Source of the DNA: Pseudomonadales bacterium
GTDB taxonomy: Bacteria > Pseudomonadota > Gammaproteobacteria > Pseudomonadales > DC-out160
Assembly (NCBI GenBank): GCA_019090455.1
Contig: JAHRWA010000077.1
Location: 1-64,000, forward strand
Direction: 5' to 3'
DNA length: 64,000 bases
Part shown: positions 7,972-22,632 of the stretch, in pieces
Position numbering within the stretch: the stretch's first letter is position 1
How the letters are laid out: each line of letters starts with the position of its first letter
The notes under the pieces: model-generated
What the model saw: the letters and a program-made list of their open reading frames with translations, nothing else
The model's database searches: none
Told to the model about the DNA's origin: nothing
Position numbers and translations under genes: made by a program

Positions 7972-10655
7972 TGAATACGGATTTGAAGTTGCCAAACAAT
8001 CAATTCACCCAAGCCCGTTTTTGGAAGTGTGCGTTACAGGTAAATCCGGCAGCCTATATAAATTATCAAGGTCAATCTCAGCCATTATCGGAAACACAGT
8101 ACAACCAAGCCCTTTTGACTGCTTGTATCGAATCGAACATTTCGGTGATCGGATTAGCGGATCATGGCAACGTGGATGCAGTGGAGGCTATTCGTCAGTT
8201 GTTCTCAAGTAGTGGCATTGTGGTCTTTCCAGGATTTGAAATTTCTTCTAGTGAAAAAATTCATTTTGTCTGTTTGTTCTCTGAAGAAACAAGTACTCAG
8301 CTGCTAGAGCGCTACTTAGGGAACCTTGACCTGCTTGACCCTGAAAATGGAGTGCGTCCTTCTCGCTTGAGCGCTATACAATTGATAGAAAAAGTGGAGC
8401 AGTTAGGGGGCTTTATATACGCGGCTCACAGCACTAACGATAGTGGTTTGCTCAAAGCAAAAATGAATCATGTATGGCAGCACCCTCAACTTAAAGTCTC
8501 TCAAATACCCGGTGCAATAGAGGACTTGAAAAGTGTTGAAAATGACTTTTATCGCAAAGTATTCCTGAATAAGGATAATGCTTATAAAAGAGAACGGCCA
8601 ATGGCTGCGATTAATGCAAAGGATGTAGAAGCACCAGAGACGATTAAGAAAAAGTCGGCTTCTTGTTTGATAAAAATGACGAAGCCGAGTTTTTCAGCCT
8701 TTAAACAAGCCTTTTTAGATCCCGAATCAAGAGTTAGACTCAATAGTGATGTGCCAGAAAACTATGCGTCCTCGATTGAGTCGATACGTTTTGTTAGCGG
8801 TTATTTAGATGGTGTCAGCATTAATTTATCGGATCACTTAAACGCAATAATCGGCGGCCGGGGTACCGGTAAGTCTACCTTGTTGGAATGTATTCGTTTC
8901 GCCATGGGCATCAGACCGCAAGGCAAACAAGCACAAAAACAACACGATGAAATTATTAAAGAGAATGTGGGTAAAGAGAAAGGCTTGGTTGAACTGATTG
9001 TTCGCTCTAGCACCATGAACGGGCGGCGCTTTACCGTTTTAAGGCGTTATGGTGAGCAGACCGTTGTGAAAAACGATCAGGGTGAGCTGTCACCGCATAC
9101 AGCACAAGATTTATTGCCAAAACTGGAGATGTTTGGCCAAAATGAAATCTATGAAATGACACAAAACGTCGAGGGGAAGCGCTATCTTTTAAGTCGATTT
9201 CTTGAGGGTGATCATAACGAATATGAAACTGTTATCCAGGAAATTCTCGGAAAACTTAATGGCAATCGAACTGATATTCTTCGAGCTTACGGCCATAAAA
9301 ACGATATCGAGTCAGAGGTCGAGGCGTTGCCCAAACTACAGGATCAAGTCAATCAATTCCAATCGCTAGGTATTGAAGAAAAACTGAAGGTGGTACCGAA
9401 GTTAGAGAAAGAGAAGCATCTCGTAACGCGTGTGGCAGACGAAGTATCCCAGTTGAAAATTGCCTTGGAAACCGTAGCCGATAGCTTGCCTGACACGGCC
9501 TTTTTGAGTGAGGCCGCCATCGGTGACTTACCTCATGTAGAATTGTTACGCAAACAACGATCACTGCTTGAGAAGTTGAAGGCTGATGGAGATGTTTTCC
9601 TAAAGCAGTTTGAAAAAGCAATCGTTCTCGCGGAGCAGGCTAATCAAATGGTTTGTGATCCTCTGCTAGAAGGTATCAAAACCGAAGAGCTGACGTTGGA
9701 AAAGGCATTTAAAAATATACCGGCAAGCCAGGGTAGGTCTGGTCGTGAAATAGGTATGGAGTACCAAAAGCTACTTCAGAAAATAGAGAGAATTAAACCT
9801 AAGCAAATCACCTTAAAACAGCGTCAAGATTTGATCGTTGAGCTTGAGGTAAAACGTAAGTTACTTTTGACTAATTTGAGTGAAGCTAAAGCAAATCGTT
9901 CAGCTCAATTACAGCAAGCGGTAAAACATCTGAATAAAAAATTGGCAGGTAAATTAAGGTTAACTATAGATGTGGAAGGTAATAGAGAACCATTAGTTCA
10001 ATTTTTATTAGATAGCAGGCTCGACGGTGTTGGAGAGAAACGGCTTGCTTGGGTGCGTGATGAAGACTTCTCACCTGCGAATTTAAGCTTAACAATACGA
10101 CAAGGGGTTGATGCTTTAAGTAGTCAATTTTGGGATGCTGGTATTGCGCGAACAGTAATAAATTCTTTGATAAAACTTCCGTTTGAGCGACTACTGACGC
10201 TGGAAGAAATTGAGTTGCCTGACACCATTAAAATGGAGCTAAATGTTGCTCACGATGATGAAGTAGAAAATTATCGTGAACTTGAGCGTCTTTCCACAGG
10301 GCAACAATGTACGGCTATCCTTCATCTATTATTATTGGATAATCAAGATCCGCTGATCTTAGATCAGCCAGAGGATAATCTCGATAACGCGTTTATCGCT
10401 GATCGTATTGTCGCAGAACTGCGTACGGCAAAAGTGGCTCGCCAATTTTTATTTGCCACTCATAATGCTAATATCCCCGTTTTTGGGGATGCTGAATGGA
10501 TAGGGGTTTTTAATGTTGTTGATGGTAAGGGGGAGCTTCCTGATAATCAGCAAGGGGCTATAGACCAGCCGGAAATACAAAAACTAGCAGCCGATATATT
10601 AGAAGGTGGCAAGAGTGCATTCAACCAACGCCGAGAAAAATACGGATTTGAATAA
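7971..10655 (+). CDS. TrlF-type PHP-ABC ATPase, defence-associated
   Basis: The 894-residue protein joins an N-terminal PHP-like phosphoesterase region (GLADHGNVDA around 61-70, FPGFEISSS, AAHSTND around 151-157) to an SMC/ABC-type ATPase. The ATPase shows Walker A GGRGTGKST (295-303), a long helical coiled-coil middle, an ABC signature LSTGQQ (about 774), Walker B LILDQPEDNLDN (about 795) and an H-switch FATHNANIP (about 827). This matches the TrlF family often found in type I restriction-modification loci. Its start overlaps the hsd scar by one base (TAATG) with GGAG 8 nt upstream. The activity is probably DNA or RNA attack during infection, but this is inferred from context. Confidence 0.8.
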   Translation: MNTDLKLPNNQFTQARFWKCALQVNPAAYINYQGQSQPLSETQYNQALLTACIESNISVIGLADHGNVDAVEAIRQLFSSSGIVVFPGFEISSSEKIHFVCLFSEETSTQLLERYLGNLDLLDPENGVRPSRLSAIQLIEKVEQLGGFIYAAHSTNDSGLLKAKMNHVWQHPQLKVSQIPGAIEDLKSVENDFYRKVFLNKDNAYKRERPMAAINAKDVEAPETIKKKSASCLIKMTKPSFSAFKQAFLDPESRVRLNSDVPENYASSIESIRFVSGYLDGVSINLSDHLNAIIGGRGTGKSTLLECIRFAMGIRPQGKQAQKQHDEIIKENVGKEKGLVELIVRSSTMNGRRFTVLRRYGEQTVVKNDQGELSPHTAQDLLPKLEMFGQNEIYEMTQNVEGKRYLLSRFLEGDHNEYETVIQEILGKLNGNRTDILRAYGHKNDIESEVEALPKLQDQVNQFQSLGIEEKLKVVPKLEKEKHLVTRVADEVSQLKIALETVADSLPDTAFLSEAAIGDLPHVELLRKQRSLLEKLKADGDVFLKQFEKAIVLAEQANQMVCDPLLEGIKTEELTLEKAFKNIPASQGRSGREIGMEYQKLLQKIERIKPKQITLKQRQDLIVELEVKRKLLLTNLSEAKANRSAQLQQAVKHLNKKLAGKLRLTIDVEGNREPLVQFLLDSRLDGVGEKRLAWVRDEDFSPANLSLTIRQGVDALSSQFWDAGIARTVINSLIKLPFERLLTLEEIELPDTIKMELNVAHDDEVENYRELERLSTGQQCTAILHLLLLDNQDPLILDQPEDNLDNAFIADRIVAELRTAKVARQFLFATHNANIPVFGDAEWIGVFNVVDGKGELPDNQQGAIDQPEIQKLAADILEGGKSAFNQRREKYGFE

Positions 10656-10664
10656 GGGTAACCT

Positions 10665-11906
10665 ATGCTGAAGTCAGAATTGTTAGAGATTATCGCCAAT
10701 GGTGAAACCTCAGGCGTTGAATTCAAACGAGATGATGTTCGTCCTGAGCAATTGGCCAAAGAAGTGGTGGCGATGGCCAACTTAAAGGGAGGTATGCTTC
10801 TTTTAGGTGTAGAAGATGACGGGACTATTAGTGGCGTAAAGAAAGATAAACTTGAAGAATGGGTAATGGACGGCGTGTTTGGAGCCAAAGTTCATCCAAT
10901 GATGTTGCCATTTTATGAAGAAGTGAAAATTGAAGCTGATTGTCGTGTTGCGGTGATTTCTTTTACGCAAGGCACAAGTAAACCCTATGTCGTAAGAGAT
11001 AAAGGTAGGGAAGATGTCTATGTTCGCGTTGGCACTACATCACGATTGGCCAGTAGAGAGCAGCAGGCTCGACTGTTTGAGAGCGGTGGTATTTTACACT
11101 CAGAAGTACTGCCCGTTGCAGGGACATCTTTTGTGTCATTGAGTCAAGAGAGATTAAGTGACTATCTCAGTCATATTATTAATGATCCAGATGTACCGGC
11201 AAATGAAACTGAATGGATACAACGTCTAATAGGCTTGAGCTATATGGCAGAGGGGGTTGCTGATAAACCCGTCTGTACGATAGCGGGCCTAGTTTTATTC
11301 GGCCACTCACCGAGAAAGTCTCTTCATCAAGCGGGTATCAGACTTATGGTCTTTGATAGTGTCGATAAACAATACGAGGCCTTATTGGATGAAATACTAG
11401 ATAGCCCTATGGTTGGTTTGTGGCGTACTGATGAAGAAGGGCAACGTCAATTGGCTGACAGCGATGTTGGAATCATTGAACGCTTTATAGATAAAGTAAC
11501 TCCATTTATTAGTGACGAATCTGACGAAGTGGATGAGGGTTTTCGACGTGAAAAACAGTGGCATTACCCACGAGATGCGGTGCGAGAACTTATCATCAAT
11601 GCATTGGTTCATCGAGACTGGACACAATCAATTGATATCGAAATATGTGTGTATTCTAATCGAATGGAAGTCGTTAGTCCGGGTACATTACATAACTCAA
11701 TGACCATAGAAAAAATGTTAGCTGGTCAACGTTCACCAAGAAACCCTTTAATCGTTGAGCTGTTGCGGGATTATGGTTATGTAGATGCCAGGGGTATGGG
11801 TGTAAGAACGAAAATTATACCGTTAATGAAAACTTTCAACCAATCTGAGCCAGAGTTTGAACTCACCGATGATTATTTAAAAACAACTCTGTATAAAAAA
11901 ATATAA
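10665..11906 (+). CDS. AlbA_2/Schlafen-like ATP-binding protein
   Basis: The 413-residue product starts with an AlbA_2 (divergent AAA_4, Schlafen-like) domain, GETSGVEFKRD ... AMANLKGGMLLLGVEDDG (about 13-55). It ends in a GHKL-type ATPase domain of the HATPase_c_4 class, DAVRELIINALVHRDW (about 303-318), followed by a small C-terminal domain. It lies 9 bp after the TrlF-type gene with its own AGGG site, so the two form an operon. Such proteins occur in restriction and defence loci, either as putative regulators or as effectors. Both genes look intact while the flanking systems are degraded. Confidence 0.8.
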   Translation: MLKSELLEIIANGETSGVEFKRDDVRPEQLAKEVVAMANLKGGMLLLGVEDDGTISGVKKDKLEEWVMDGVFGAKVHPMMLPFYEEVKIEADCRVAVISFTQGTSKPYVVRDKGREDVYVRVGTTSRLASREQQARLFESGGILHSEVLPVAGTSFVSLSQERLSDYLSHIINDPDVPANETEWIQRLIGLSYMAEGVADKPVCTIAGLVLFGHSPRKSLHQAGIRLMVFDSVDKQYEALLDEILDSPMVGLWRTDEEGQRQLADSDVGIIERFIDKVTPFISDESDEVDEGFRREKQWHYPRDAVRELIINALVHRDWTQSIDIEICVYSNRMEVVSPGTLHNSMTIEKMLAGQRSPRNPLIVELLRDYGYVDARGMGVRTKIIPLMKTFNQSEPEFELTDDYLKTTLYKKI

Positions 11907-11939: not shown

Positions 11940-12326
11940 GATATAGGTGTTAGAAGCCCCCGTTGGATAATCAACTTCCCCACCAAACAGCATTGGCGTG
12001 CCAAATCTAAAATGGAGTGCAGCCTGTTGGAGATTCAAAAGCTAGCTTGGTTTTTAGATCGTGTCATTAAGGCGCAAGGTTTAGAGGACGTCCTTAAACT
12101 CAATTTCATAGCCAACGATTACGGCCCCTATGACAATAACTTAGACCACCTTCTGAATGCGTTGGACGGTAGTTATTTGAAAGCCGATAAGCGGGTGCCT
12201 GATAGCAACCCGCTGGACGTCATTTGGTTTAATGATGCGAAGAAGGAGTTTCTGAATACCTACCTCAACACCGAAGGACAACGTTACTTATCCGCGCTTG
12301 AAAAAGCGGAAATTAAAACTGTTTGA
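11940..12326 (+). pseudogene. DarG antitoxin remnant with terminal and internal deletions
   Basis: The frame starting at 11940 reads [17 protein letters not shown], a conserved macrodomain stretch of DarG, the ADP-ribosyl glycohydrolase antitoxin of DarTG. It then jumps directly to [15 protein letters not shown] ... [21 protein letters not shown], the DarG C-terminal domain. The macrodomain N-terminus is absent (a stop precedes 11940) and roughly 80 residues that normally separate the two segments are missing. No darT is visible. An ATG-initiated 104-codon frame exists from 12012, but it lacks the catalytic macrodomain. This is a toxin-antitoxin relic. Confidence 0.78.
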
Positions 12327-12563: not shown

Positions 12564-12588
12564 TGGTGCCCCGGGCAGGTGTCGAACT
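12564..12588. repeat. Distal attachment-site copy of tRNA-Arg 3' end
   Basis: TGGTGCCCCGGGCAGG (12564-12579) is identical to the minus-strand 3' end of the tRNA-Arg gene at 22556-22571. The similarity continues with two mismatches to 12588. This is the duplicated core left by tyrosine-recombinase integration into a tRNA 3' end and marks the left boundary of a ~10-kb element. Between the DarG remnant and this site (12327-12563) I see no convincing gene. Confidence 0.88.
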
Positions 12589-12637
12589 GAAGACCTAACT
12601 AACTGTATTTAAAGATAATAAAATAGGATGAATTTCG

Positions 12638-12660
12638 TAGATACCCCCATAGATACCCCC
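12638..12660. repeat. Left-end TAGATACCCCC direct repeats, candidate integrase arm sites
   Basis: Two copies of TAGATACCCCC stand at 12638-12648 and 12650-12660, 50-75 bp inside the left attachment core. Closely similar motifs (AAGATACCCC and AAGTACCCCCTATT) lie inside the right end near the integrase start. The pairing fits integrase or excisionase arm-type sites. Function is inferred from position and similarity. Confidence 0.55.
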
Positions 12661-12718
12661 TATTTAATTTGCTGTAAAAGTGTACTGATGAGCTTTGTGT
12701 GCCTCGTTTACGCTCGAG

Positions 12719-13186
12719 TTAGATAATGAATTTATCAAACGGGTTTTTACCGACATCTCTACCGCCACCGATTAACCTACCCCTTGAAGCAGGATCAAGC
12801 CCAAGCATGCCGCCAAAGGTGGACATCTGCCTTAAGGATTCATTAGCCACGGTACAGGCTGGATTCTTAATTGCGCCGCCGGCGGCTGTTGCAATTGTTA
12901 GGCCAACTCTTGATATCTCGGCTTCCGCTTCACGCCATGTGGCATAAGAACTACAGAACGCTTCCAAGTTGTGTAAGTCAGTAACCGCCAATACCTTTTT
13001 CTTACAAAGGTGAGGGCAAACTGTATTCCATATATCAATGGCCAAAGGTCTGAGCCATTGAGGGGCTTCAACATCTGTGACTAAATCAAATTCAATGGCA
13101 TCCGAATTATAGTGCTTGCTACCTGATAGCTTCTTTTGCTGGTTAGGTTTTGGCTTTCTTCCACCGCCCGATCTTCTCTGTGTCAT
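12719..13186 (-). CDS. Phage terminase small subunit, P27 family
   Basis: The 155-residue product (MTQRRSGGGRKPKPNQQKKL, then WLRPLAIDIWNTVCPHLCKK and LDPASRGRL near the C-terminus) matches the P27 family of small terminases, which recognise cos/pac DNA and hand it to the large terminase. No large terminase, portal or capsid gene is present. A lone TerS in a ~10-kb element is the hallmark of phage-inducible islands that redirect helper-phage packaging. It is the last minus-strand gene before the left attachment site. Confidence 0.85.
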   Translation of the reverse strand: MTQRRSGGGRKPKPNQQKKLSGSKHYNSDAIEFDLVTDVEAPQWLRPLAIDIWNTVCPHLCKKKVLAVTDLHNLEAFCSSYATWREAEAEISRVGLTIATAAGGAIKNPACTVANESLRQMSTFGGMLGLDPASRGRLIGGGRDVGKNPFDKFII

Positions 13187-13323
13187 GTATAAATTTTAAC
13201 CTCTCTCAGTTTCTTATTTTGACCACGTAAAAATCTAATTACAGGGGCGGTCTTCCATTATGACATCATAGAGATTTAACCCCCCCCCTACCCCTTATCG
13301 TACTTGTGACAGGGTGATACTAC

Positions 13324-13578
13324 TTACTCTATCTCATCCTTCAGCTTTATTAAGTCTGAGCGGTTACAGTCGAACATGCTTGCCCAGTCATCAACTAAGC
13401 ACCTACCAATCCTAGCAAGGCCGGCAACCTGTGAAGGATCGTCTTTGCTTTTACTGATGGCATTAAACAAAGTACCTAAGTCTTGGACACAGTCGCTACC
13501 CAGAGCAGCAACATCAATCGAGGTACGACATAGCTCTGCTAGTTTGTTTGTTGGTACCGTCTTAGTGGGCTGACTCAT
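13324..13578 (-). CDS. Satellite small protein, third copy of tandem family
   Basis: This is an 84-residue protein of unknown function. Its sequence (NKLAELCRTSIDVAALGSDC, then VQDLGTLFNAISKSKDD) is paralogous to the two genes upstream: polar N-terminus, helical core with D-L-x-x-L-x-x-A-I, a GLARIG-type glycine segment, and an acidic tail. Its start overlaps the stop of the preceding copy by 4 bp (ATGA type), giving tight translational coupling. It is the most diverged copy. Confidence 0.65.
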   Translation of the reverse strand: MSQPTKTVPTNKLAELCRTSIDVAALGSDCVQDLGTLFNAISKSKDDPSQVAGLARIGRCLVDDWASMFDCNRSDLIKLKDEIE

Positions 13579-13847
13579 ATCAATTCCCCCTCTTTGTCAG
13601 AGATTTCTATAAGCTTTGTTTGTAGGGTCTCGTTGGTGGTGTCGATGTACTCGCGCCATTTGTTGGCTAAAGCCATACCAACACCAGCTAATCGAAAAGA
13701 TAAGGTGCCTTTGTTACTGGCATCACGGATAGCAATTAGTAATGCGCCTAGATCATCAATAGCATTAGAACTAAAGCAGGTGAGGTCTATTAAGTCGTTA
13801 ACGGCTTCATTGGTTTTTTTTGGTACTGCCTTAGTGGACAGGCTCAT
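13575..13847 (-). CDS. Satellite small protein, second copy of tandem family
   Basis: This is a 90-residue paralogue of its two neighbours (NDLIDLTCFSSNAIDDLGAL, LLIAIRDASNKG, LAGVGMALANKWREY). It overlaps both by 4 bp, so the three form one coupled unit. It is similar to the first copy through the IDDLxALxxAIRDASxK core and ends in the same GEL-type tail. No known domain was recognised. Confidence 0.65.
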   Translation of the reverse strand: MSLSTKAVPKKTNEAVNDLIDLTCFSSNAIDDLGALLIAIRDASNKGTLSFRLAGVGMALANKWREYIDTTNETLQTKLIEISDKEGELI

Positions 13848-14113
13848 TTCAACTCCCCCTCTTTACGAGAAAGTTCGCTAACCTTTCGCTGTAGGTTCTC
13901 TTTGCTGGTGTAGGCATGCTCACACCAATCATTGGATAGGGATATACCAATACCAGCCAACTGAAAAGGTATAGAGTTTTTGTCACTGGCATCACGAATA
14001 GCCGTGAACAATGCGTCTAGATCATCGATGGATGTAGCGCTAAAACTTGCGAGGTCGAGTGATTCATTAATAATATTGTTTGTTTTGGATGGTGCTTGAG
14101 TGTGATTTTGCAT
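13844..14113 (-). CDS. Satellite small protein, first copy of tandem family
   Basis: This is an 89-residue product if translation starts at MQNHTQAPSK (ATG 14113, with AGGA 11 nt upstream); a longer reading to 14164 is less likely. The core is DLASFSATSIDDLDALFTAI, then RDASDKNSI and LAGIGISLSNDW, almost the same as copy two. Short helical proteins made as a coupled trio next to terS suggest a dosage-sensitive or heteromeric role, for instance in helper interference, but this is only inference. Confidence 0.62.
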   Translation of the reverse strand: MQNHTQAPSKTNNIINESLDLASFSATSIDDLDALFTAIRDASDKNSIPFQLAGIGISLSNDWCEHAYTSKENLQRKVSELSRKEGELK

Positions 14114-14312
14114 ACTGAAGTGAATCCTGTAGTAAGTGATTTCTATCACCACCACTGATGCCAATCAGATAGGTGGCGAGCTGTGTAGAGTTGGCATTAC
14201 CGTCTACAGGAAACGGCGCGCTCGAAAGCGCCCCCACACAGCCCGCCATAACGCGGACACAAAAAAACGCCAGACGAGGCGCTTGTTGCGCCTGTAGATT
14301 TCCGGATGCCAA
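14067..14312 (-). CDS. Ash/Icd-like leader ORF, dubious
   Basis: A minus-strand frame with a TTG start at 14312 encodes ASGNLQAQQAPRLAFFCVRV, then MAGCVGALSSAPFPVDGN. This resembles the Ash/Icd-like small proteins annotated upstream of regulatory genes in P4-type satellites and prophages. It overlaps the start of the first tandem gene in another frame. The 14165-14500 stretch contains GC-rich inverted repeats and no other gene. It could be a real small protein, a structured leader RNA or both. Confidence 0.4.
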   Translation of the reverse strand: MASGNLQAQQAPRLAFFCVRVMAGCVGALSSAPFPVDGNANSTQLATYLIGISGGDRNHLLQDSLQYAKSHSSTIQNKQYY

Positions 14313-14501
14313 TCCGAGTTGCAGATTTTGCTACAACGGCCAAAGAATATAACGCTACTCTTTTTCATGTCAATGATATTACTTTGCCGTTTACCTCGCG
14401 CACTCACCACCAATGAAGCCTAGGGTGGTCTAGGAAGCTGTATAATTCAGGCTCCGTCATGTAAATTCATAACAATATTTTTATCAGATCGACGCTAATA
14501 A

Positions 14502-15050
14502 ATGAAAAGGTTCGAAGATATGAAAACCAAGTTCGATATATATGAAAGCCCTTTTTCTGAGGAAACAAGGAACATCAGAAGAAACTCACTGCTTGCTTGT
14601 GGGTTGTGTTTGTTTATTGGCTTGACTGAAAACTTACCAAGTAAATTTGGATTGCTTGGTCTTAGTTTTGACGTAAGGCAACAGTACGTTATTGGCTGGT
14701 TTATTCTTTCTGTAGCTCTGTATCATTTCCTTCATTTTCTCGCTAGCGGAGGCATTGAATTTGTGAACTGGATAAAACCACGCTTCATCGATTTAGTTAT
14801 GACGAAAAAAGCCAATGAGACCGGCTTATTTGACGACGATAGTTCAGGTGACTTTTACGAGGGAGGAAATGAACTAGACCCCTCTAAAATTGCTTCAGAA
14901 ATCAAACAGGCTTCACTGGTGAAAGTCGAACACCGTTTGAGGTATTTGTATAAAATAATCTTTCTCAAGTTAGTCATTGAGGTTTTGGTTCCCGTTGTCG
15001 TCGCTATTTGGGGTTTGACTGCGTTAGCATTATTTTTGGCCTGCCGATGA
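14502..15050 (+). CDS. Satellite cargo: membrane protein of unknown function
   Basis: This is a 182-residue protein with two hydrophobic segments in the N-terminal half (NSLLACGLCLFIGLTENLPS; VIGWFILSVALYHFLHFLAS) and one at the C-terminus (LVIEVLVPVVVAIWGLTALA), separated by a soluble acidic loop (about 105-150). ATG 14502 or the in-frame ATG 14520 could be the start. It is transcribed opposite to the replication genes, with the next two plus-strand genes, in the position where satellites carry accessory and anti-phage cargo. No family recognised. Confidence 0.6.
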   Translation: MKRFEDMKTKFDIYESPFSEETRNIRRNSLLACGLCLFIGLTENLPSKFGLLGLSFDVRQQYVIGWFILSVALYHFLHFLASGGIEFVNWIKPRFIDLVMTKKANETGLFDDDSSGDFYEGGNELDPSKIASEIKQASLVKVEHRLRYLYKIIFLKLVIEVLVPVVVAIWGLTALALFLACR

Positions 15051-15173
15051 AGCGCCCCTCCGCCGTCCCTATTATGCCATGTTTGGTATCGCTGGAAGGC
15101 GAGATTTTGAGATGTTAGAGTTCACTTTCTTTACGGTATAGCAACTGGCTCTACAAATGAGGAAAAAAGTATT

Positions 15174-15371
15174 ATGAAAAAAACACCTTCAATAGATTGG
15201 CATGACCTTTCAGAAGAAGAGCAGGAAATCGCCGATAGTGAATGTAACGATGGAGAACATGGTCGACTCACTCAAGAAAAGGGATCCGGTGGTGGTACAG
15301 GGGATTATATGTGTACGGAATGCGGAATTTTAAAATCTGGCCAACAATGGGAGAGTGAAGGGCTTCGGTGA
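15174..15371 (+). CDS. Small acidic protein with a CTEC pair
   Basis: This 65-residue protein is rich in Glu/Asp and Gly, with one Cys pair (MCTECGILKSGQQW) near the C-terminus and a further Cys at DSECNDGEH that could complete a metal site. AGGA lies about 10 nt upstream of the ATG. It sits between two membrane-protein genes of the cargo block. Function unknown; a small zinc-ribbon-like partner is conceivable. Confidence 0.5.
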   Translation: MKKTPSIDWHDLSEEEQEIADSECNDGEHGRLTQEKGSGGGTGDYMCTECGILKSGQQWESEGLR

Positions 15372-15444
15372 TCAATTAGTTTGATGTATGGGTTCGGTCG
15401 GGGAAGCCGCTAAGCCCTATAACTCTTATAAAATTAGTTGAGAA

Positions 15445-16311
15445 ATGATGGATATATCTAAAAAGGACAAAATTAAAACTCGAAGGCTATTGTTCGCAGC
15501 GATCGCTTCAATATGTGGATCTGTAGCATTATACGCGGCTATTATTATTTGCTTGTCTTGGCCAATTAGCGAGTTTTCAATCACTAAATCTGGAGCTTTT
15601 GGTGATAGTTTTGGTTTGTTGACATCTCTATTTTCAGGTTTAGCTTTCTCAATCTTGATCATCACCGTCACTCTTCAAAGGGAGGAGTTAGCATTGCAAC
15701 GTCAAGAGCTGATGTTAACAAGAGAGGTATTGGATGATCAAAAAGAAGAAATAAAGAAGCAAGGCCGTATTTTCGAAGCGCAAACTTTTAATAATCTTTT
15801 TTTTAGCATGAATTCATCGCGTATTGAGAGCATGAAGGGCTTAGAAATACCTCGCTCACAGATTTCTTGGGGGGCGGCTCCTGGCTATGTTTATGAGAAT
15901 ATTTTAAGGAATAGGTTCTACGCCCAGTTTCAGCAGCGTATAAAGCTTACTAGCGGGAAACGCAGAGATTTAATATTAGAAGAAGAGCTAGTTAGTAGGC
16001 TAAAAAATGAGTTTACGTCCAATAGCGTCTGTATGTCTTTATCAAATATAATGGCTATGTTTTATTCTCAAATTCTTCATGTTGAATTATCTTTCCCCAA
16101 AAATGAAGAAATATCTGGAGTATGGGAGGGAGAGGTATATATCGATATATTACGCCAACAGTTTGATCTAAACCTAAAAAGAATAGCAATATATATGCTC
16201 GCGTCAGGTGTTAATAAACAAATCAAGCAGAAGTTCTTAGATTATGGCTTTATTGATGTCGCGGATACATCTGTATTTAGTACTGATGCTGGAATATTGG
16301 ATTTTATATAA
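15445..16311 (+). CDS. Putative abortive-infection membrane protein, AbiC-like
   Basis: This is a 288-residue product. It has two N-terminal membrane helices (about 14-36 and 50-73) separated by a short loop ending KSGAFGDSFGLLTSLFSGLA. A charged coiled-coil follows (LQREELALQRQELMLTREVL) and then a soluble helical domain. This arrangement, especially GxFGDxFGxLxSLFSGLA plus LQREELxLQRxEL, matches the putative phage abortive infection family (putAbiC, PF16872). It is the best candidate anti-phage cargo of the element and points away from the replication genes. Alternative start ATG at 15448. Confidence 0.68.
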   Translation: MMDISKKDKIKTRRLLFAAIASICGSVALYAAIIICLSWPISEFSITKSGAFGDSFGLLTSLFSGLAFSILIITVTLQREELALQRQELMLTREVLDDQKEEIKKQGRIFEAQTFNNLFFSMNSSRIESMKGLEIPRSQISWGAAPGYVYENILRNRFYAQFQQRIKLTSGKRRDLILEEELVSRLKNEFTSNSVCMSLSNIMAMFYSQILHVELSFPKNEEISGVWEGEVYIDILRQQFDLNLKRIAIYMLASGVNKQIKQKFLDYGFIDVADTSVFSTDAGILDFI

Positions 16312-16375
16312 ATCGGGTTTTTCTCGCCCGTAAAATCAACAAAGCGGACTTTCTGCGACATATGTAAATTTAGCT

Positions 16376-17116
16376 CTATTGGAATCCATCAAGAGATACA
16401 TTAGCCGCCCTACGTCCGGTGCTTTGCTTACTGATCTCTCTCTCATCCTTGGCCATAGCGTCACACCACACTTCAGCGTACTTGATCAAAGCAGTCTTTT
16501 TCTCGCTGGGTATCATCCTAGCCAAGTGGTTTTTAATATATATCCTGTCTTCCGGAAGGAGCTCAAGCCCTCGATCAATCAGAATTTGAAGGTCATCAAC
16601 CGGGTTAATGGGTAGGGGTTTCTTTTCTGTAACCTTTGCCCACGTCCTAAGCTCTTGGTATAAATCCTTTCGGTGACTCATCCACCAATAGAGATACCGT
16701 ATCACGTCATCAGGCTTAGAAGCGCCTATGTAAATGTCGGCCAAACCATCAGAGCAAAAGGGCTGCTTCCACCGTTTAAACCCCTCCCAGATCATAGGTT
16801 CTGTTATCGGTGTGTCCTTCAGAAAACCAAAATCTAAAGGTTTACCCCTGTGCAACCTGTGCAATTCGTGCAAAGCCCCGTCATCTATAGGTTTAGGGAC
16901 TGTGCGCACGCTGTGCAAGCCTGTGCAACTTTTCGAATTATCGATGTTAAGTTGAGCATTCTCCTTTTTTGCACAGGCTTGCACAGGCCTTGCACAGAGG
17001 CTCTCCCTTAGTCCCCCGTGGGTTTGCACAGATTGCACAGATTGCACAGGTTGCACAGGGGTAGAATCTTTTTTCTGGCGTCTAAACGCCTCAACTTCAG
17101 CCATTAAATCAAACAT
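16376..17116 (-). CDS. Replication-region protein of satellite, unknown
   Basis: The start is MFDLMAEVEAF at 17116, with GGAGG 9 nt upstream and an 8-bp overlap with the DUF3987 gene. The 246-residue product has a low-complexity N-terminal part (PVQPVQSVQSVQ) encoded by the iteron cluster. A globular part follows (FKRWKQPFCSDGLADIYIGA; VIRYLYWWMSHRKDLYQELR). I recognise no named family. Its position as the last gene of the rep block suggests a replication or regulatory role. The repeat-rich part may exist because the DNA is an origin rather than for protein function. Confidence 0.65.
   Translation of the reverse strand: MFDLMAEVEAFRRQKKDSTPVQPVQSVQSVQTHGGLRESLCARPVQACAKKENAQLNIDNSKSCTGLHSVRTVPKPIDDGALHELHRLHRGKPLDFGFLKDTPITEPMIWEGFKRWKQPFCSDGLADIYIGASKPDDVIRYLYWWMSHRKDLYQELRTWAKVTEKKPLPINPVDDLQILIDRGLELLPEDRIYIKNHLARMIPSEKKTALIKYAEVWCDAMAKDEREISKQSTGRRAANVSLDGFQ
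16848..17058. repeat. Iteron cluster TTGCACAG/CTGTGCAA, candidate replication origin
   Basis: Seven perfect TTGCACAG copies begin at 16969, 16979, 16990, 17024, 17033, 17042 and 17051, the last four spaced exactly 9 bp. Four perfect copies of the reverse complement CTGTGCAA begin at 16848, 16857, 16911 and 16921, with near matches at 16866 and 16900. All lie within 211 bp, oriented towards each other, inside the 5' third of the gene downstream of the primase and DUF3987 genes. Direct and inverted iterons beside primase genes are what P4-type origins look like. Origin function is inferred. Confidence 0.65.
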
Positions 17117-18593
17117 TCCGCAGCCTCCACACTTCTTTATTAAACTCGCCTTCAATGACCAGGCCGCCTGGTATCGGTGCAACCCAACCATACTCAATGA
17201 GGGTAGAAATAACCTTTCTTGCCTGTGCAACGCTGCCCCTAACACCGGTTGAGCTAGGCCCGTTTCGGCTTATTTTTCTGACGGAGAAGTTTTTTGAGCC
17301 TGCTTTTTTCATCCACTCTAGCAATTCGTTTGCTTTGTTAAGTTCAGCACTAATGGCACTTACTTTTGATGCTCTTAAAGCCTCATTGATGAAATAGGTT
17401 TCTAGTTTGGCGGCGCTCTGTACGTGGTGGAGACGGATTTGTTTTGAGTCTGGGTTTTCCACTAGGGCAAGCACTCCTGCAATCCTAAGTAAGTAGTCGG
17501 GCGCTTTACCCGCGGCTGGTCTGATTTCTGAAAGGCTCCTATCTTCACCCAAATTACTTTCGATTGTGTTGTAAACTTCCACCCAATAATCTTTGGCATC
17601 TTTTTCAAGAGTGAGGGTAGGGCGTTTATCTTCATCCAGGTTAGGCGAAGGTATTCGCAATAATCTATTCATGGTGTCCCAGTATCGTTGCAACGCCGGC
17701 TCTTTGGTTGGGTCTCTGTAATTGTATAGCCGAGTACCCGCGATCGTCTTGGGTGTAGCAATCAAAAACCGTGGAACGAATCCTTGCCCCTGTAAAACTG
17801 GATCACTGAGTATTTTATTGACCACTACAGGCTGAACCATTAAATGAATAGTTAACCTCTTTCCGGTCAACATAACGTTTTCACCTTTGCCCCCTCTTGT
17901 ACGGACAATATCGGCGCCATCCCAAAAAAGGGAAAGGCCGCTAATCGATTTAAGCATGTTGTCAGAATTCATAGCATGGCCACCAAAGAACTGACCACCC
18001 TCATCATTGAACAGCCCCATAGAATCACGCCCTGATGCAAACGTTTTTTGCAGGCCTTCAAGGGTAGGCTCTTGGCAGATTAGGCAAGGCGTGGCGGGCT
18101 CACTTGGCTTTGTGACCTCCTTTAGTTTGGCTGTCCGTTCTGACTGGCTTAAACCTTTTTCTTTTTTGATGAATTCCTTTTCTGTTTTATATGAATCTAG
18201 CTCATCGTTAAAATCATCTGTCTGTATTTCATGTTCTTGATAAAGCTCTCGTTGGTACTCTTTGTGAATTTTTAGCGCGAGAGAATCCGCCGCCGATTTC
18301 CTATCACCCGATTCCGCAATGGTTAAACAAAAAAGGCTGGTAGGAGATTCGCGGCCATCAATCGCCACATCAGCAATAGATTGAACCGCAAGTGAAGCCG
18401 CCGCTAATACGCTTTGTCCAGCGATCGCACCAGGGACTTGAACGCATTCAGCGATAGCTTTGGCAGCACCCCCTAATATTTCCCCTAGAGCGTCTAGCGG
18501 GTATTCTGGCGCTTCATGTTCTTCCACCAATGGGATAGGTGATTCTTGCATAACTTCTGCTTTTGCCATCATGTCAGTGATTGAACCATCCAT
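17109..18593 (-). CDS. DUF3987 (YfjI-type) replication protein
   Basis: The 494-residue product matches the DUF3987/YfjI family of prophage and satellite proteins, thought to act as a replicative ATPase/helicase partner of Toprim primases. Visible are the family's early segment (VPGAIAGQSVLAAASLAVQS), a P-loop-like TIAESGDRKSAAD (about 91-103), GLFNDEGGQFF and LTGKRLTIHLMVQP. Its ATG overlaps the stop of the primase gene by one base, indicating coupling. Confidence 0.8.
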   Translation of the reverse strand: MDGSITDMMAKAEVMQESPIPLVEEHEAPEYPLDALGEILGGAAKAIAECVQVPGAIAGQSVLAAASLAVQSIADVAIDGRESPTSLFCLTIAESGDRKSAADSLALKIHKEYQRELYQEHEIQTDDFNDELDSYKTEKEFIKKEKGLSQSERTAKLKEVTKPSEPATPCLICQEPTLEGLQKTFASGRDSMGLFNDEGGQFFGGHAMNSDNMLKSISGLSLFWDGADIVRTRGGKGENVMLTGKRLTIHLMVQPVVVNKILSDPVLQGQGFVPRFLIATPKTIAGTRLYNYRDPTKEPALQRYWDTMNRLLRIPSPNLDEDKRPTLTLEKDAKDYWVEVYNTIESNLGEDRSLSEIRPAAGKAPDYLLRIAGVLALVENPDSKQIRLHHVQSAAKLETYFINEALRASKVSAISAELNKANELLEWMKKAGSKNFSVRKISRNGPSSTGVRGSVAQARKVISTLIEYGWVAPIPGGLVIEGEFNKEVWRLRNV

Positions 18594-19618
18594 TACACCA
18601 CCTCCTTAAAGTTTGTTAGCACATCACACCAATCAATAGACTTTTGATCATCCGGTATAGGTTGGGTGGGTAAGAGTGTTTTTATATTTAAATGTGGGTA
18701 ACGGTTTGCTAGTGCGTTAGCAGAATTTAACCCGGTATCGTTCCTGTCTTTGTCTGCCATGATGTAGAGCGTTTCAACCTGTTCAGGTATCACAACCCTT
18801 TCTAACATCCCAGCACTAACACAAGCCCATACAGGCCAGCCGGTAGAAAGATACACTGCTATAGCAGTCTCTATACCTTCAGTCACCGCCAAACAATCAG
18901 TAGCTTCATACAGTCGGATAGCACCCCCACGAGTAATCCCACTCATAATTGATGTCATCAGCTTTTTAGGACTTGGTACGTTTGCTTTGTTTCCGTGTTC
19001 GGTTAGGTACGTTCGGTGAAGCCCGACCACTACCCCTTCCGGATTAAATATTGGAGCAAGCAAACAAGGATAAGAACCAAGTGATTTACCCTCATGAAAA
19101 TATTTAAGACTTGGGTGAAAGCGTAAATTAGACGGTGGGGTTTTGATTGCGCCACAAAGCCCCCTATTAGCAAAATATCTGGCCACTGGTAAGGCGTCTA
19201 ACTTCAGATTGACGATAGGGTGTGATTCTTTGAACGCCTCGCCTAAAGCCTTAAACGCGTTTTTATTTAGTTCCTCCTTTTTCTTTGGGGGTGGTGTTCG
19301 TCGTACCGGCTCCACCGATGAAGCACCACATTGTAGGTAATCACCCACCGATTTCAGCGCCTCGAGAAAGGTCCACCCGTTGGCCCACATCAACAAAGCG
19401 AAACCATCATGGAATGGCCCGCACGTATTACAGATTCCACCCCCAACCTCTAAGAATTCCTTGGGTACCCTAAAACCATCTTTACCACCATGAACAGAGC
19501 AAGGTACATGCTTTCCTATTTTCTCAAAGGCGGGTATTAGCGGTGGGCATAGATCAGGGATAATCACCCCCCAGTTACCGAACGCTAAACATCGAACATC
19601 ATTAACGTCATAATTCAT
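18593..19618 (-). CDS. Toprim-domain primase of satellite
   Basis: I place the start at MNYDVNDVRC (19618), which has GGAGG 9 nt upstream; the longer reading from 19636 lacks a site. Putative zinc-ribbon residues are C40, H43, C63 and C66 (ICNTCG). The Toprim motifs are LAVTEGIETA (Glu247/250) and IMADKDRND (D289, D291). This is a short DNA primase of the P4/prophage type that would synthesise primers for the element. It overlaps both neighbours, so translation is coupled. Confidence 0.82.
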   Translation of the reverse strand: MNYDVNDVRCLAFGNWGVIIPDLCPPLIPAFEKIGKHVPCSVHGGKDGFRVPKEFLEVGGGICNTCGPFHDGFALLMWANGWTFLEALKSVGDYLQCGASSVEPVRRTPPPKKKEELNKNAFKALGEAFKESHPIVNLKLDALPVARYFANRGLCGAIKTPPSNLRFHPSLKYFHEGKSLGSYPCLLAPIFNPEGVVVGLHRTYLTEHGNKANVPSPKKLMTSIMSGITRGGAIRLYEATDCLAVTEGIETAIAVYLSTGWPVWACVSAGMLERVVIPEQVETLYIMADKDRNDTGLNSANALANRYPHLNIKTLLPTQPIPDDQKSIDWCDVLTNFKEVV

Positions 19619-19967
19619 CGTTGGCAGCCTCCACAATTTTTAGGCCTCTTTTACGCCTCATTTTGTGAAGTGATTTAATGGCTGGCTCTCGATCCTGTTC
19701 ATCTATCCAATACCTTGAACACGGGACAGGTTTACTTGTGTGCTTGCTGGGTACTGTTGTCCTCTCCCTGGATATTTTGAGGCCGCGTTTGTTTGTAAGG
19801 TCGCTAATAGTGGAATTTAGGCAGTGATCACCATACGGCTCAACGTCGAACCGTGTGTACTTTCCCCTTTTAAGTAACAGGGTAAGAATGGTTTCTTGTT
19901 TTGTGGGTTCTTTGGTAATATTGCTTTGTGATTTTGGGGGCTGCTTTCGAGCGGCTCTTTTTTTCAT
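19608..19967 (-). CDS. Satellite protein with HTH-like core
   Basis: The product is basic and 119 residues long. A Lys/Arg-rich N-terminus is followed by QETILTLLLKRGKYTRFDVE, ending in DHCLNSTISDLTNKRGLKI, which looks like a winged helix-turn-helix of the type found in prophage regulators. The C-terminal end is basic again. It sits between alpA (one-base overlap, TAATG) and the primase gene (11-bp overlap) in a single coupled operon. DNA binding is likely; the exact role is unknown. Confidence 0.62.
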   Translation of the reverse strand: MKKRAARKQPPKSQSNITKEPTKQETILTLLLKRGKYTRFDVEPYGDHCLNSTISDLTNKRGLKISRERTTVPSKHTSKPVPCSRYWIDEQDREPAIKSLHKMRRKRGLKIVEAANDEL

Positions 19968-20173
19968 TACGCGGTCCCTTCTTGGCCGTAGCCTTCAGGG
20001 TCATTCATCCAGGTTTGGATAGCCGAAAACTTCCACCCCACCGCTCTAGGGCCTATATTTATCCTCTTTGGAAACGTGTTAGATAATTCAAGGCGGCGAA
20101 TTGTTGATTTGCATAAGCCTGTCATTGATATTACGTCTGGCAATCGAATTATTCTTTCACTGTTGTGGGGCAT
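19967..20173 (-). CDS. alpA: AlpA-family excisionase/transcription regulator
   Basis: The 68-residue product is a compact MerR-like helix-turn-helix of the AlpA family: IIRLPDVISMTGLCKSTIRR followed by FPKRINIGPRAVGWKFSAIQ and WMNDPEGY. AlpA proteins activate integrase or act as excisionases and are standard in P4-type satellites and phage-inducible islands. It is the first gene of the rep operon. Repeated GGTGCG half-sites lie upstream at 20268-20345 and are natural candidates for operator sites. Confidence 0.88.
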   Translation of the reverse strand: MPHNSERIIRLPDVISMTGLCKSTIRRLELSNTFPKRINIGPRAVGWKFSAIQTWMNDPEGYGQEGTA

Positions 20174-20267
20174 TCTCTTTACTCCTTGTGTTCAATAGGA
20201 GTAAAGAAGGTTAGAGCGAGCCAGAATGCAAAAAAAGGGGCTAAAATATAGTGAATTATGAAATATA

Positions 20268-20345
20268 GCACCGGTGCGAATTAATGGGTATTACCTGGAA
20301 ATCGCAGGGGTGCGTTTTTTCGTGAAATGACAATAAAGCGCACCC
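20268..20345. promoter_or_regulatory. GGTGCG operator-like repeats upstream of alpA
   Basis: GCACCGGTGC (20268-20277) is a perfect palindrome containing a GGTGCG half-site that continues at 20278. A further GGGTGCG (20308-20314) and its complement CGCACCC (20339-20345) form a 7-bp inverted repeat. The three half-sites sit 95-172 bp upstream of alpA and directly after the stop of the 20357-21046 gene. They could be operator sites for an element regulator or a weak terminator. Confidence 0.4.
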
Positions 20346-20356
20346 TTCCTATTTTT

Positions 20357-21046
20357 CTATAATTTCGGGTGCCATCTTTTTATACAGTTTTTTACATATT
20401 CTTGATCAATTTCATCAGCAGGATTTGGAAATATGGCGTTAGTTATTTTTTCTATTACCAAATACATAGGTTGATCGAATTTGGTAATAAAAGACTTATA
20501 CAGAAATCTAACAAAATAAACTTTGTTTGCCGTGGCGCTGCCGGGGTGTAAAACCAACCGATCAAGCTCGCCAGACCGAACAACTCGATCTGAAACATCA
20601 TTTAAAAGGTCGTTCAGTGTAGGTGCGGGAGTTAATTTAATCTTATGTGGAGTTGTTAACGATACGAAACAGAGCAATGAGTAATCTGGTAGCCACTCTG
20701 TAATATTTCGGTCATAGCCCAGATCATGAAGCAGGGGTGTTAGCTTTTTTATCGCAGCATTAATAGCTTCAGTTTTTTCTTTATATTCGGTTTTGCTTAG
20801 CTTCTCTCGGTAGGGTGGGGATAAAGCCATTTCTAAGGTCACGCTTAACCAAGAAAAAGCCTTTAAATCGGATTCAAAAAAACCTCTTAATTTTTTCCAT
20901 GGCTTAGATAATGATTCATTGGTTGTGAGTTCTTCCCTAACTGTTATCGATAAATCGCTATCTACAACCTCTTTGTTTTTTATTCTTTCCTCTAATCTAC
21001 AGCATCTATTACGAATATCTTCCGGCACCCAGCTTGCAAAGTTCAT
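20357..21046 (-). CDS. Satellite protein of unknown function
   Basis: This 229-residue, mostly helical protein (MNFASWVPEDIRNRCCRLEE; LRGFFESDLKAFSWLSVTLE; EINQ-type end) has no motif I can name. It lies between the integrase and the alpA operon on the same strand, separated from the integrase by a strong hairpin and from alpA by the GGTGCG repeat region, so it is probably its own transcript. Proteins in this position in satellites are often accessory or regulatory. Confidence 0.6.
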   Translation of the reverse strand: MNFASWVPEDIRNRCCRLEERIKNKEVVDSDLSITVREELTTNESLSKPWKKLRGFFESDLKAFSWLSVTLEMALSPPYREKLSKTEYKEKTEAINAAIKKLTPLLHDLGYDRNITEWLPDYSLLCFVSLTTPHKIKLTPAPTLNDLLNDVSDRVVRSGELDRLVLHPGSATANKVYFVRFLYKSFITKFDQPMYLVIEKITNAIFPNPADEIDQEYVKNCIKRWHPKL

Positions 21047-21075
21047 GTATGGTACGGCTCCTTCTCACAACCCTT

Positions 21076-21144
21076 CAAAAAATAAAAACCAAACCAAGCT
21101 GGCGAAGGTGTCCAGCGTTTCAGGAGCTACCCTAGGTTTGGTTT
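21076..21144 (-). terminator. Nested hairpin terminator after integrase
   Basis: AAACCAAACC (21086-21095) pairs perfectly with GGTTTGGTTT (21135-21144). An inner stem GCTGG (21098-21102) pairs with CCAGC (21112-21116). On the minus strand the structure is followed by TTTATTTTTT, making a Rho-independent terminator for the integrase transcript just past its stop. Confidence 0.65.
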
Positions 21145-21162
21145 ATTCGGTTTAACTGTTCT

Positions 21163-22383
21163 CTATTTTTTTGCTCGAAAAGGAATAACCTTTCTTCCTT
21201 CCAATTGAGTATCCAAATAATCAGCCCACCATTGCATCATGTCTGTTCTGTCTTCTAGGTATTGGGCTTGGTTATAGGCGGCTCTTACTTTGTTTCTTTC
21301 GCCGTGTGCTAATTGACGTTCGATTACATCAGGGCGAAAGCCGGTTTCGTTTAAGATGGTTGAGGCCACGGTTCTAAATCCATGGGCGGTAGCATCAAAG
21401 TTAAGGCGCTTTCTGATTGCGAAGGTAAGTGTGTTTTCGCTCATAGGTCTCTTGAAATTGTGGTGACCAGGAAAAACGTATTCATAGCTACCCGATATTT
21501 CATAAGTCTTTTTTAAAACCTCAATACTTTGGCGTGATAGCGGTACAACGTGTTCCTCATTCATTTTCATGCGTTCAGCGGGGATTCTCCATTCCTGCTT
21601 TTCAAAATCGATTTCTGACCACATGGCCGCTCTAAGCTCACCAGGGCGAACAAAGGTTAAGACAATCAAACGTAAAGCTTGGCGGGTAAGTCCTGTTATA
21701 TGGTCGCTGGTGTTAACAGCATTTAAAAAGGCGGGTAATTGATTTGAGGGTAGGGCGGCTTGGTGGGTTACTTTGCGGGATTGAATAACATCAGCCAAAG
21801 CATCAGCCGGATTTTTTTCTGTATAACCCGTATAGATTGCGTATCGAAAAATAGAGGACATTCGTTGCTTTGCTCTACCGGCAACATCTAAAGCACCGCG
21901 CCCTTCAATCTTACGAATAACCAACAGGCAATCTTTGGCCTGTATGGTGTCGATGGGAATTAGGCCAATCGTTGGGAACACATCCACGACCAAGCTTTGC
22001 TTTACTCTTTTGGCGTGACCTGTGGACCATCGGCCTTTGTTTTTTTCAAACCAATCTAAGGCAACAAATTCAAAGGTGGTAGCGGAGATTTCAATCTTAG
22101 CGGTTTTCTTGTGGGCGCTAGGATCAGAGCCGTTTTCTAGTAGCTCTTTTGCCTTGGCGGTTTCTTTGCGAGCATCGGCCAGCGATACGTCAGGGTATAC
22201 CCCCAGTGCTAACACTTTTTCTTTAGAATTGAATCGATACTTTAAACGCCAGTAACGAGAACCGTTAGGGTTGACGAGAATATACATTCCACCCCCATCG
22301 CTTAGCTTGTAGGGCTTCTCCTTTGGCTTAGCTGTCTTTACAGCGACAGCCGTTAATTTGCCCGTTGTGCTTCGTCTTGCCAT
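21163..22383 (-). CDS. int: P4-type tyrosine integrase
   Basis: The 406-residue protein has the P4-integrase layout: an N-terminal DUF4102 arm-binding domain (AKPKEKPYKLSDGGGMYILV; YWRLKYRFNSKEKVLALG), a core-binding domain, and the catalytic domain. Catalytic residues are visible: R246 (FVRPGEL), K273 region, H334-xx-R337 (HGFR), H360 (LAHGERN) and Y370 (AAYNQAQY). It points away from the tRNA-Arg gene 172 bp behind its start, the standard arrangement. It should catalyse integration and excision at the tRNA 3' end. Confidence 0.95.
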   Translation of the reverse strand: MARRSTTGKLTAVAVKTAKPKEKPYKLSDGGGMYILVNPNGSRYWRLKYRFNSKEKVLALGVYPDVSLADARKETAKAKELLENGSDPSAHKKTAKIEISATTFEFVALDWFEKNKGRWSTGHAKRVKQSLVVDVFPTIGLIPIDTIQAKDCLLVIRKIEGRGALDVAGRAKQRMSSIFRYAIYTGYTEKNPADALADVIQSRKVTHQAALPSNQLPAFLNAVNTSDHITGLTRQALRLIVLTFVRPGELRAAMWSEIDFEKQEWRIPAERMKMNEEHVVPLSRQSIEVLKKTYEISGSYEYVFPGHHNFKRPMSENTLTFAIRKRLNFDATAHGFRTVASTILNETGFRPDVIERQLAHGERNKVRAAYNQAQYLEDRTDMMQWWADYLDTQLEGRKVIPFRAKK

Positions 22384-22384
22384 T

Positions 22385-22435
22385 TGGGGGTATGTTTCCA
22401 GTTCTTAACTAAGATACCCCTTAAAGTACCCCCTA
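22385..22435. repeat. Right-end integrase arm-site repeats
   Basis: GGGGGTAT (22386-22393), AAGATACCCC (22411-22420) and AAGTACCCCCTATT (22424-22437) cluster between the integrase start and the tRNA. They resemble the TAGATACCCCC pair inside the left end (12638-12660). The rest of 22438-22555 shows no gene. Matching ends of an element suggest arm-type recombinase sites; the integrase promoter must also lie here. Confidence 0.5.
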
Positions 22436-22555
22436 TTAAAATAACTCGCAAGCTATCTCTTGAATCGCTAAGGAGGCGTAAGTAAGGCTAAGGCTATGTT
22501 TCTAGTGATATATTAGGAGGAATGAATCGTTGTGGAATGTCTTGAAACAACTATG

Positions 22556-22580
22556 TGGTGCCCCGGGCAGGATTCGAACC
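22556..22580. repeat. Proximal attachment-site copy inside tRNA-Arg
   Basis: The 16-bp core TGGTGCCCCGGGCAGG (22556-22571) repeats at 12564-12579. With that copy it delimits an element of about 9,990 bp. The tRNA remains intact because integration regenerates its 3' end. Confidence 0.85.
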
Positions 22581-22632
22581 TGCTACCTGCCCCTTAGGAG
22601 GGGGCCGCGCTATCCAGATGTGCCACCGGGGC
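22556..22632 (-). tRNA. tRNA-Arg(CCU)
   Basis: This is a 77-nt minus-strand cloverleaf. The acceptor stem pairs GCCCCGG with CCGGGGC. The anticodon stem is GCCCC/GGGGC around loop CTCCTAA (anticodon CCU, reading AGG), the T-loop is GGTTCGAATCC, and CCA is encoded. The D-stem has one mismatch. It is the integration target of the adjacent element; its 3' end is duplicated at 12564. tRNA-Arg(CCU) is a known integration hotspot (argW in E. coli). Confidence 0.93.

Follow-up and report, generated by a model that had tools for sequence, protein, structure and literature searches.

In a 64,000-nt stretch of the genome of a Pseudomonadales bacterium (GTDB lineage DC-out160; assembly GCA_019090455.1, contig JAHRWA010000077.1, positions 1-64,000; hereafter the window), we identified an element of ~10 kb (12564-22571) at a tRNA-Arg(CCU) gene that is probably an integrative satellite packaged from a cohesive-end (cos) site, encoding its own small terminase subunit (TerS) and borrowing the large subunit (TerL), HNH nuclease, capsid, and tail of a helper phage. 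A satellite of the broad phage-inducible chromosomal island (PICI) kind is the best reading of its sequence. This assignment draws on the element ends, the gene content, a cos site, a TerS and cos half of matching class, a C4 antisense RNA, and a phage of the same genus with matching parts. A first-pass annotation had already proposed a complete satellite at this tRNA gene, bordered by direct repeats of the tRNA 3' end, and both proposals held. Absent from it were the cos site, the C4 antisense RNA, a second RNA between int and alpA, and a tandem array of three paralogues (13324-14113, minus strand).

The cos site lies just upstream of terS. It emerged when the gap upstream of the window terS was compared with the HNH-TerS gaps of phages with related TerS, a likeness that was first noticed by side-by-side reading and afterwards tested by profiles; a word-sharing comparison found little. 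Most phage gaps share a G-rich tract, a GACCGCC-like block 25-30 nt on, a T-rich stretch, and a short TerS-side motif, and this motif can be taken as the cos region because the two ends of the HK97 record join inside it. A profile built from 12 phages, with the window excluded, matched 13226-13293(-) at 26.4 bits (E=6e-6 in 1.25 Mb), against a top score of 12.5 bits in 50 simulated windows of matched dinucleotide frequencies; the window score was 29.1 bits after four prophages had been added to the profile and 32.6 bits with two further phages. A separate sequence model, likewise built without the window, recovered the window cos as the single site in the 5.55-Mb genome (31.1 bits, E=1.1e-6), and its runner-up match within the window, with filters off, scored 4.5 bits. 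The profile is validated by prophages outside the first model, as their cos sites were detected beside their own terS. Vibrio anguillarum phages with a 45% identical TerS were excluded from the model, since there is no room for a cos between their HNH and TerS genes; in two of them with related TerS (L101 3611-3976, L105 211-576), the spacing from the HNH gene to terS is 6 nt, and therefore cos must be elsewhere.

The window TerS belongs to the P27 family and shares 45-50% identity with TerS proteins of HK97-like phages; it has no match in the PDB. HK97 TerS binds 15-29 bp beyond the cut, via a C:G pair, an A-tract, and its N-terminal arm (PMC11331095), and this protein can be compared by analogy only, because it is just 15% identical to the window TerS family. 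In a sample of 80 virus loci with P27-type TerS, cos lies beside TerS in 79, and TerL adjoins TerS in 78, with the remaining two ending near a contig edge. The sampled phages are related and the classes of arm and half-site were noticed post hoc, so that the following counts are not independent trials: of the 77 TerS with the arm NPGKR, 76 go with a half-site of the CCGCGAA type (the exception is off by one base), the arm SGSRH goes with GTGTAC(A/G)AAATT in two phages (L115 and L116), and RGNPSKK, another type of arm, is paired with GCGGGAAAAATGG in two prophages. These pairings suggest a code in which each type of TerS N-terminal arm has a cos half of its own. With the arm SGSKHYN and the half-site GTGGTCAAAATAAG, the TerS arm and the TerS-side cos half of the window fall into the same minority class, which is represented by 2 of the 80 sampled phage loci. 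The best TerS-half matches of the window are also L115 and L116, with 21 and 19 of 26 positions compared with a mean of 15.6.

A candidate for the helper type is an HK97-like prophage such as that found in G001, the sole other genome of the genus examined, on a contig with HNH, cos, TerS, and TerL. Its TerS is 74% identical to the satellite TerS over 153 residues and has the arm KLAGSKHYKS, and its cos shares CCTGTAATnAG and ACGnGGnCnAAATAAGAAA with that of the window; over the right part of the site, the two agree at 32 of 42 positions. We tentatively propose that the element is a cos-type satellite that re-specifies the helper terminase by its own TerS, combining a generic cleavage half with a class-matched TerS half, a strategy not encountered in the literature searched, and that it may be one of a larger group of HK97-cos satellites among marine-type gammaproteobacteria. 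A less likely explanation is that terS is redundant in a cos satellite, in that a helper TerS with an arm of this class would recognize the satellite cos unaided and the element's own copy would merely add dosage or widen the choice of helper. The G001 prophage, with a TerS of the same arm class and a nearly identical cos half, fits such redundancy, as do relatives such as Chromohalobacter L061 that carry cos without a P27 terS. A useless copy, however, would leave unexplained the constraint on a terS that stands beside a cos of matching class: between the satellite and G001 genes dN is 0.18 with synonymous sites near saturation, which points to strong constraint averaged over both lineages.

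If terminase re-specification is correct, an arm-to-cos-half code would let helpers be predicted from sequence, and the match of TerS arm and site means that swaps of short pieces could test how P27-type small terminases recognize their sites. The cos profile together with the TerS arm offers a sequence-only route to recognize HK97-cos satellites and to propose their helpers, and here provides one concrete satellite-phage pair within one genus. Applied to other genomes of the order, this profile detected orphan cos sites there too, as discussed later.

The ends of the element are defined by exact 16-bp repeats of the tRNA 3'-end core, 9,992 bp apart; longer 24-nt copies of the end repeat are 92% identical. 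The 15-mer GGTGCCCCGGGCAGG from the tRNA 3' end occurs exactly twice in the window, compared with 0.02 occurrences expected by chance with up to two mismatches allowed. Further paired repeats near both ends are likely integrase arm sites. G001 has an identical tRNA that adjoins a different integrase on a short contig, and the right-flank genes of the window are at the end of another G001 contig, apart from the tRNA contig. No DNA match to the element was found in a plasmid collection.

Leaving the tRNA, the minus strand encodes int, the int-alpA RNA, a 229-aa gene, alpA, a 119-aa gene, a Toprim primase, a DUF3987 protein, and an iteron-bearing open reading frame (ORF; orf289), beyond which three cargo ORFs on the plus strand precede the C4 antisense RNA, the paralogues rA-rB-rC, cos, and terS on the minus strand (Table 1). 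Pfam and PHROG matches bear out the first-pass gene calls for int, alpA, the Toprim primase, the DUF3987 protein, and terS. The iterons of that annotation were confirmed as well, with seven copies of CCTGTGCAA, on either strand, in the 600 nt past the DUF3987 gene and at most two in any other stretch tested; they are embedded in the N-terminal half of the orf289 coding sequence and form the presumed replication origin. A PADLOC search of the cargo gave no convincing match. Scans of the ORFs against Pfam, PHROG, and NCBIfam recognized no capsid, tail, portal, TerL, or HNH gene in the element, in agreement with the earlier statement that capsid and tail genes are missing, and no relaxase-type gene was recognized either. 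The terS that had been described as lone is indeed a P27-family gene without terL, but the packaging module comprises both terS and cos and is preceded by a C4 antisense RNA.

Since terS and cos are clearly of the HK97-like phage type, they might, together with int, have been left by chance in a decayed HK97-like prophage. We regard this as very unlikely, as the replication core is that of an element family whose members, in numerous genera, occupy tRNA and tmRNA genes together with int and alpA, a second copy of the core is present in the same genome (the sister element L023), the reading frames of terS and of every core gene are uninterrupted and full-length, and no HNH, TerL, portal, or capsid remnants were recognized.

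Table 1. Features of the element and its attachment sites in the window, ordered by position.
Feature	Position	Strand	Evidence or remark
Distal attachment-site core (tRNA 3'-end copy)	12564-12579		Exact 16-bp repeat of 22556-22571
GATACCCCC-type repeats, distal end	12639-12667		79% identity to 22412-22440
terS, P27-family small terminase, 155 aa	12719-13186	-	PF05119 1.5e-23; phrog_83 8e-45
cos site of HK97-like phages	13226-13294	-	G-rich tract and cleavage block; TerS-side half starts here and runs to ~13210
rC, 84 aa, third of tandem paralogues	13324-13578	-	33% identity to rB; 45% to ORF in G001 prophage
rB, 90 aa	13575-13847	-	Paralogue of rA and rC
rA, 89 aa	13844-14113	-	Adjoins C4 RNA; 52% identity to rB
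C4 antisense RNA	14169-14253	-	RF01695, 77.8 bits, E=2.9e-14; folding z-score -4.9
Cargo ORF, 182 aa, hydrophobic segments	14502-15050	+	No family match
Possible small cargo ORF, 65 aa	15174-15371	+	No PADLOC match
Cargo ORF, 288 aa, hydrophobic N-terminus	15445-16311	+	phrog_8999 1.2e-11
orf289, likely start 17116	16376-17245	-	phrog_852 6e-06 at C-terminus; 61% identity in L023
Iterons (CCTGTGCAA / TTGCACAGG)	16843-17063		7 copies vs <=2 elsewhere
DUF3987 replication protein, 494 aa	17109-18593	-	PF13148 3.9e-85; phrog_2373
Toprim/zinc-ribbon primase, 347-aa ORF	18593-19636	-	PF13362, PF08273, phrog_510
119-aa gene	19608-19967	-	Kept in sister element
alpA	19967-20173	-	PF05930 2e-16
229-aa gene between int and alpA	20357-21046	-	No family match; possible distant counterpart in sister element L023 (24% identity in alignment with L023 7069-7881)
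int-alpA RNA	21072-21142	-	RF02996, 52.5 bits, E=8.8e-09
Tyrosine integrase, 406 aa	21163-22383	-	PF13356, PF22022, PF00589
GATACCCC-type repeats, tRNA end	22412-22440		Paired with 12639-12667
tRNA-Arg(CCU), anticodon CCT in DNA	22556-22632	-	Holds attachment-site core 22556-22571

The C4 antisense RNA heads the rA-rB-rC-terS stretch and folds far better than shuffled sequences. Its Rfam score is above the gathering cut-off, and complementary words are present on the same transcript: CTACAGG, the complement of the loop word CCTGTAG, occurs both in the leader (14297) and immediately before the start codon of rA (14132). A promoter-like site at 14373 precedes the C4 region, although such sites are also expected by chance. 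A leader C4 RNA is laid out in the same way in phages P1 and P4, and the silencing logic is therefore likely of the immunity type, with the packaging unit kept silent until a trigger; we infer that a helper would release it from the C4 block. The rA-rB-rC paralogues are probably phage-derived C4 targets, as another prophage of G001 has an rA homologue that follows a C4 RNA. Structure prediction for rA-rC reached a pLDDT of 62 with three sequences, too poor for a fold search. In a prophage of the same genus (L256 852-1022 and 10185-10673), we also observed two isrK/C4 RNA pairs, one of them before an rA/rC homologue (phrog_27414).

In the proposed cycle, Int would recombine the 16-bp ends, with AlpA promoting excision, and the circle would replicate from the iteron origin into concatemers with the primase and DUF3987 protein that it encodes. 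Once the C4 block is lifted, the rA-rB-rC-terS unit would be expressed; the element's TerS would then bind the element's cos at the TerS-side half and recruit the helper TerL and HNH nuclease, which would act on the conserved cleavage half to bring satellite DNA into helper capsids. The expected helper would be an HK97-like phage of the kind that is lysogenic in the sister species.

Relatives of the element were found in other genomes and in the same assembly. L023 (contig 80, ~29-41 kb) shares the DUF3987 protein (80% identity), the primase (77%), orf289, and alpA, and a 51-bp stretch past its int is 88% identical to the int-alpA RNA region of the window; its integrase is different and its cargo is a type I restriction-modification system. 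A search for matching elements in relatives, which the first-pass annotation had suggested, yielded 42 named loci that share DUF3987, mostly in Gammaproteobacteria and Rhodobacterales from marine or saline habitats. Many of them, in many genera, have int beside them at tRNA or tmRNA genes, and those with measurable end repeats are mostly 6.6-14.6 kb long. None of the PF05119 matches in the genomes of the relatives lies inside a DUF3987 element. In the window and in L051, L054, L056, L057, and L080, the gene after DUF3987 holds element-specific short repeats that translate into low-complexity peptides rich in Pro and Gln, as though these elements had their replication origin within coding sequence. 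As tested, iterons past DUF3987 are not a general rule, since the most repeated word was strictly in this region in just 12 of 50 loci.

Several points weigh against a cos-packaged satellite with its own TerS. The sister element L023 has neither a P27 terS nor a cos match, and the same is true of most DUF3987 relatives, so that the core alone does not imply a cos packaging route. No PF03354 TerL was found in the host assembly (other TerL families were not searched), and the helper would therefore have to come from outside. A helper TerS of the same class may make the element's own TerS dispensable, and excision, replication, induction, packaging, and the helper are all inferred from the sequence. 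L023, with the same core and a restriction system, would also suit an integrative island that is not packaged and moves otherwise, by conjugation in trans or by transformation, with terS and cos as passengers. Such an island seems unlikely, as class-matched TerS and cos side by side are hard to explain without packaging, and no relaxase-type gene was recognized there.

Beyond the window, clear cos sites are present in two of the relatives, Chromohalobacter L061 (30.8 bits) and an Aeromonadales metagenome-assembled genome, L051 (26.8 bits). L061 has no P27 terS, and the TerS half of its cos is still the one common among phages (CCCGCGAAATT), which would be expected of an element that depends on a phage TerS. 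We do not count the weaker candidates as cos carriers: scores in Billgrantia L076 (13.8-15.0 bits) and Aestuariicella L052 (13.6-16.6 bits) are borderline compared with 13.7 bits in shuffles, and Haliea L054 reaches 7.5 bits with the phage-only model. Across the order, 25 of 240 genomes have a strong cos. Most of these sites adjoin HNH, TerS, and TerL; the exceptions are 10 sites in 7 loci, several of which contain int, alpA, or a lone capsid gene. Orphan cos sites of the HK97 type thus seem to recur among satellites. An orphan-cos locus, L233 (6040-14935), has three cos-like sites within 9 kb, together with int, an AlpA-like gene, an HK97-type capsid gene, and a short TerS of the same family (PF05119, 26.8 bits), with no TerL or HNH recognized. 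The combination of terS and cos is therefore rare in our sample and not restricted to the window.

Other features of these loci were also observed. A tape-measure-like tail gene is directly beside the orphan cos in L226 (5902-8121), which also has a capsid gene, and in L051 (3455-5411); a satellite with its own tape measure could change helper tail length or block tails. Among int-bearing relatives or orphan-cos loci, a capsid gene without terminase is present in L059 (12527-14599, plus a head protease), L076 (11854-13011), and L247 (6693-7964), where it might serve in capsid-size control. Two cos-like sites per element were found in L243 (7724-8041) and L076 (6622-6699 and 14002-14078), and the same has been reported for EcCICFT073. 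In the window itself, a fragment of the DarG antitoxin (DarTG; 12012-12326) immediately flanks the element at its distal end. To the left of the element, a two-gene cassette (7971-11906, +) encodes an 894-aa look-alike of PHP/SMC-like ATPases and a 413-aa AlbA_2-type protein with weak matches to PADLOC models associated with pAgo; these may be defense genes.

The first-pass annotation had classed the element as a P4/PICI-type satellite. Satellite P4 integrates at a tRNA gene and has an AlpA-type regulator, a Toprim-domain replication protein, and a C4-class antisense RNA, all of which are also found in the element. Unlike P4, however, the primase and DUF3987 genes are separate, neither the fused alpha primase-helicase nor a P4 capsid-size control or polarity protein is among the Pfam, PHROG, and NCBIfam matches of the scanned ORFs, and the C4 RNA precedes the rA-rB-rC-terS unit instead of replication genes. 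The strict P4 part of that classification was therefore dropped, and the broad PICI part stands on gene content and cos.

Gene-content features described for Gram-negative PICIs (PMC6092414) are present in the element, including an integrase with a specific attachment site, an alpA-type regulator, and replication genes with a repeat origin (as judged by sequence), along with the lack of tail, lysis, and TerL genes. PICIs are further characterized by phage-dependent induction, packaging into phage particles at high frequency, and interference with the reproduction of the helper, traits that show only in a strain with a helper. EcCICFT073 (PMC6092414, PMC6739421) is similar in its int-alpA-primase order, its size of ~10 kb, its lack of structural genes, and its cos packaging by the helper's TerL, with a shared cleavage half and a TerS-side half that can be specific to the element. 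It differs by lambda-type cos sites and the lack of a TerS, the helper TerS being redirected by Rpp proteins, whereas our element has an HK97-type cos, with the profile match standing beside a P27 terS, and a separate primase and DUF3987 protein for replication. Staphylococcal SaPIs (PMC5052747) also take over packaging, either by their own TerS (pac SaPIs) or by a helper-matching cos (cos SaPIs such as SaPIbov5), but each relies on a single one of these routes, in Gram-positive hosts and with other terminase families; the element has an HK97-type cos and a complete TerS. The cf-PICIs (PMC10690885) share HK97-type packaging components, but encode TerL, HNH, portal, protease, and capsid, none of which was recognized here. 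Published satellites thus combine a helper-type cos with the helper TerS, use their own TerS for pac, or redirect a lambda-type TerS by Rpp (PMC5052747, PMC6092414, PMC6739421, PMC10690885); an HK97-type cos with an own, class-matched TerS was not found in the satellite literature searched, the coverage of which is incomplete and leaves its absence unproven. The PICMIs of Vibrionaceae (PMC10803314) resemble the element in having int, alpA, and a DUF3987-type replication gene (DUF3987/DUF5906 primase) and no capsid-remodelling genes. They are defined by their location next to fis, in contrast to tRNA-Arg(CCU) here, and lack recognizable packaging genes; PICMI115, with no identified cos, pac, or terS, is apparently packaged by a headful mechanism, whereas the element has terS and cos. 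The int-alpA-primase-DUF3987 core itself is common to PICMIs (PMC10803314) and to many tRNA/tmRNA elements of marine-type Proteobacteria.

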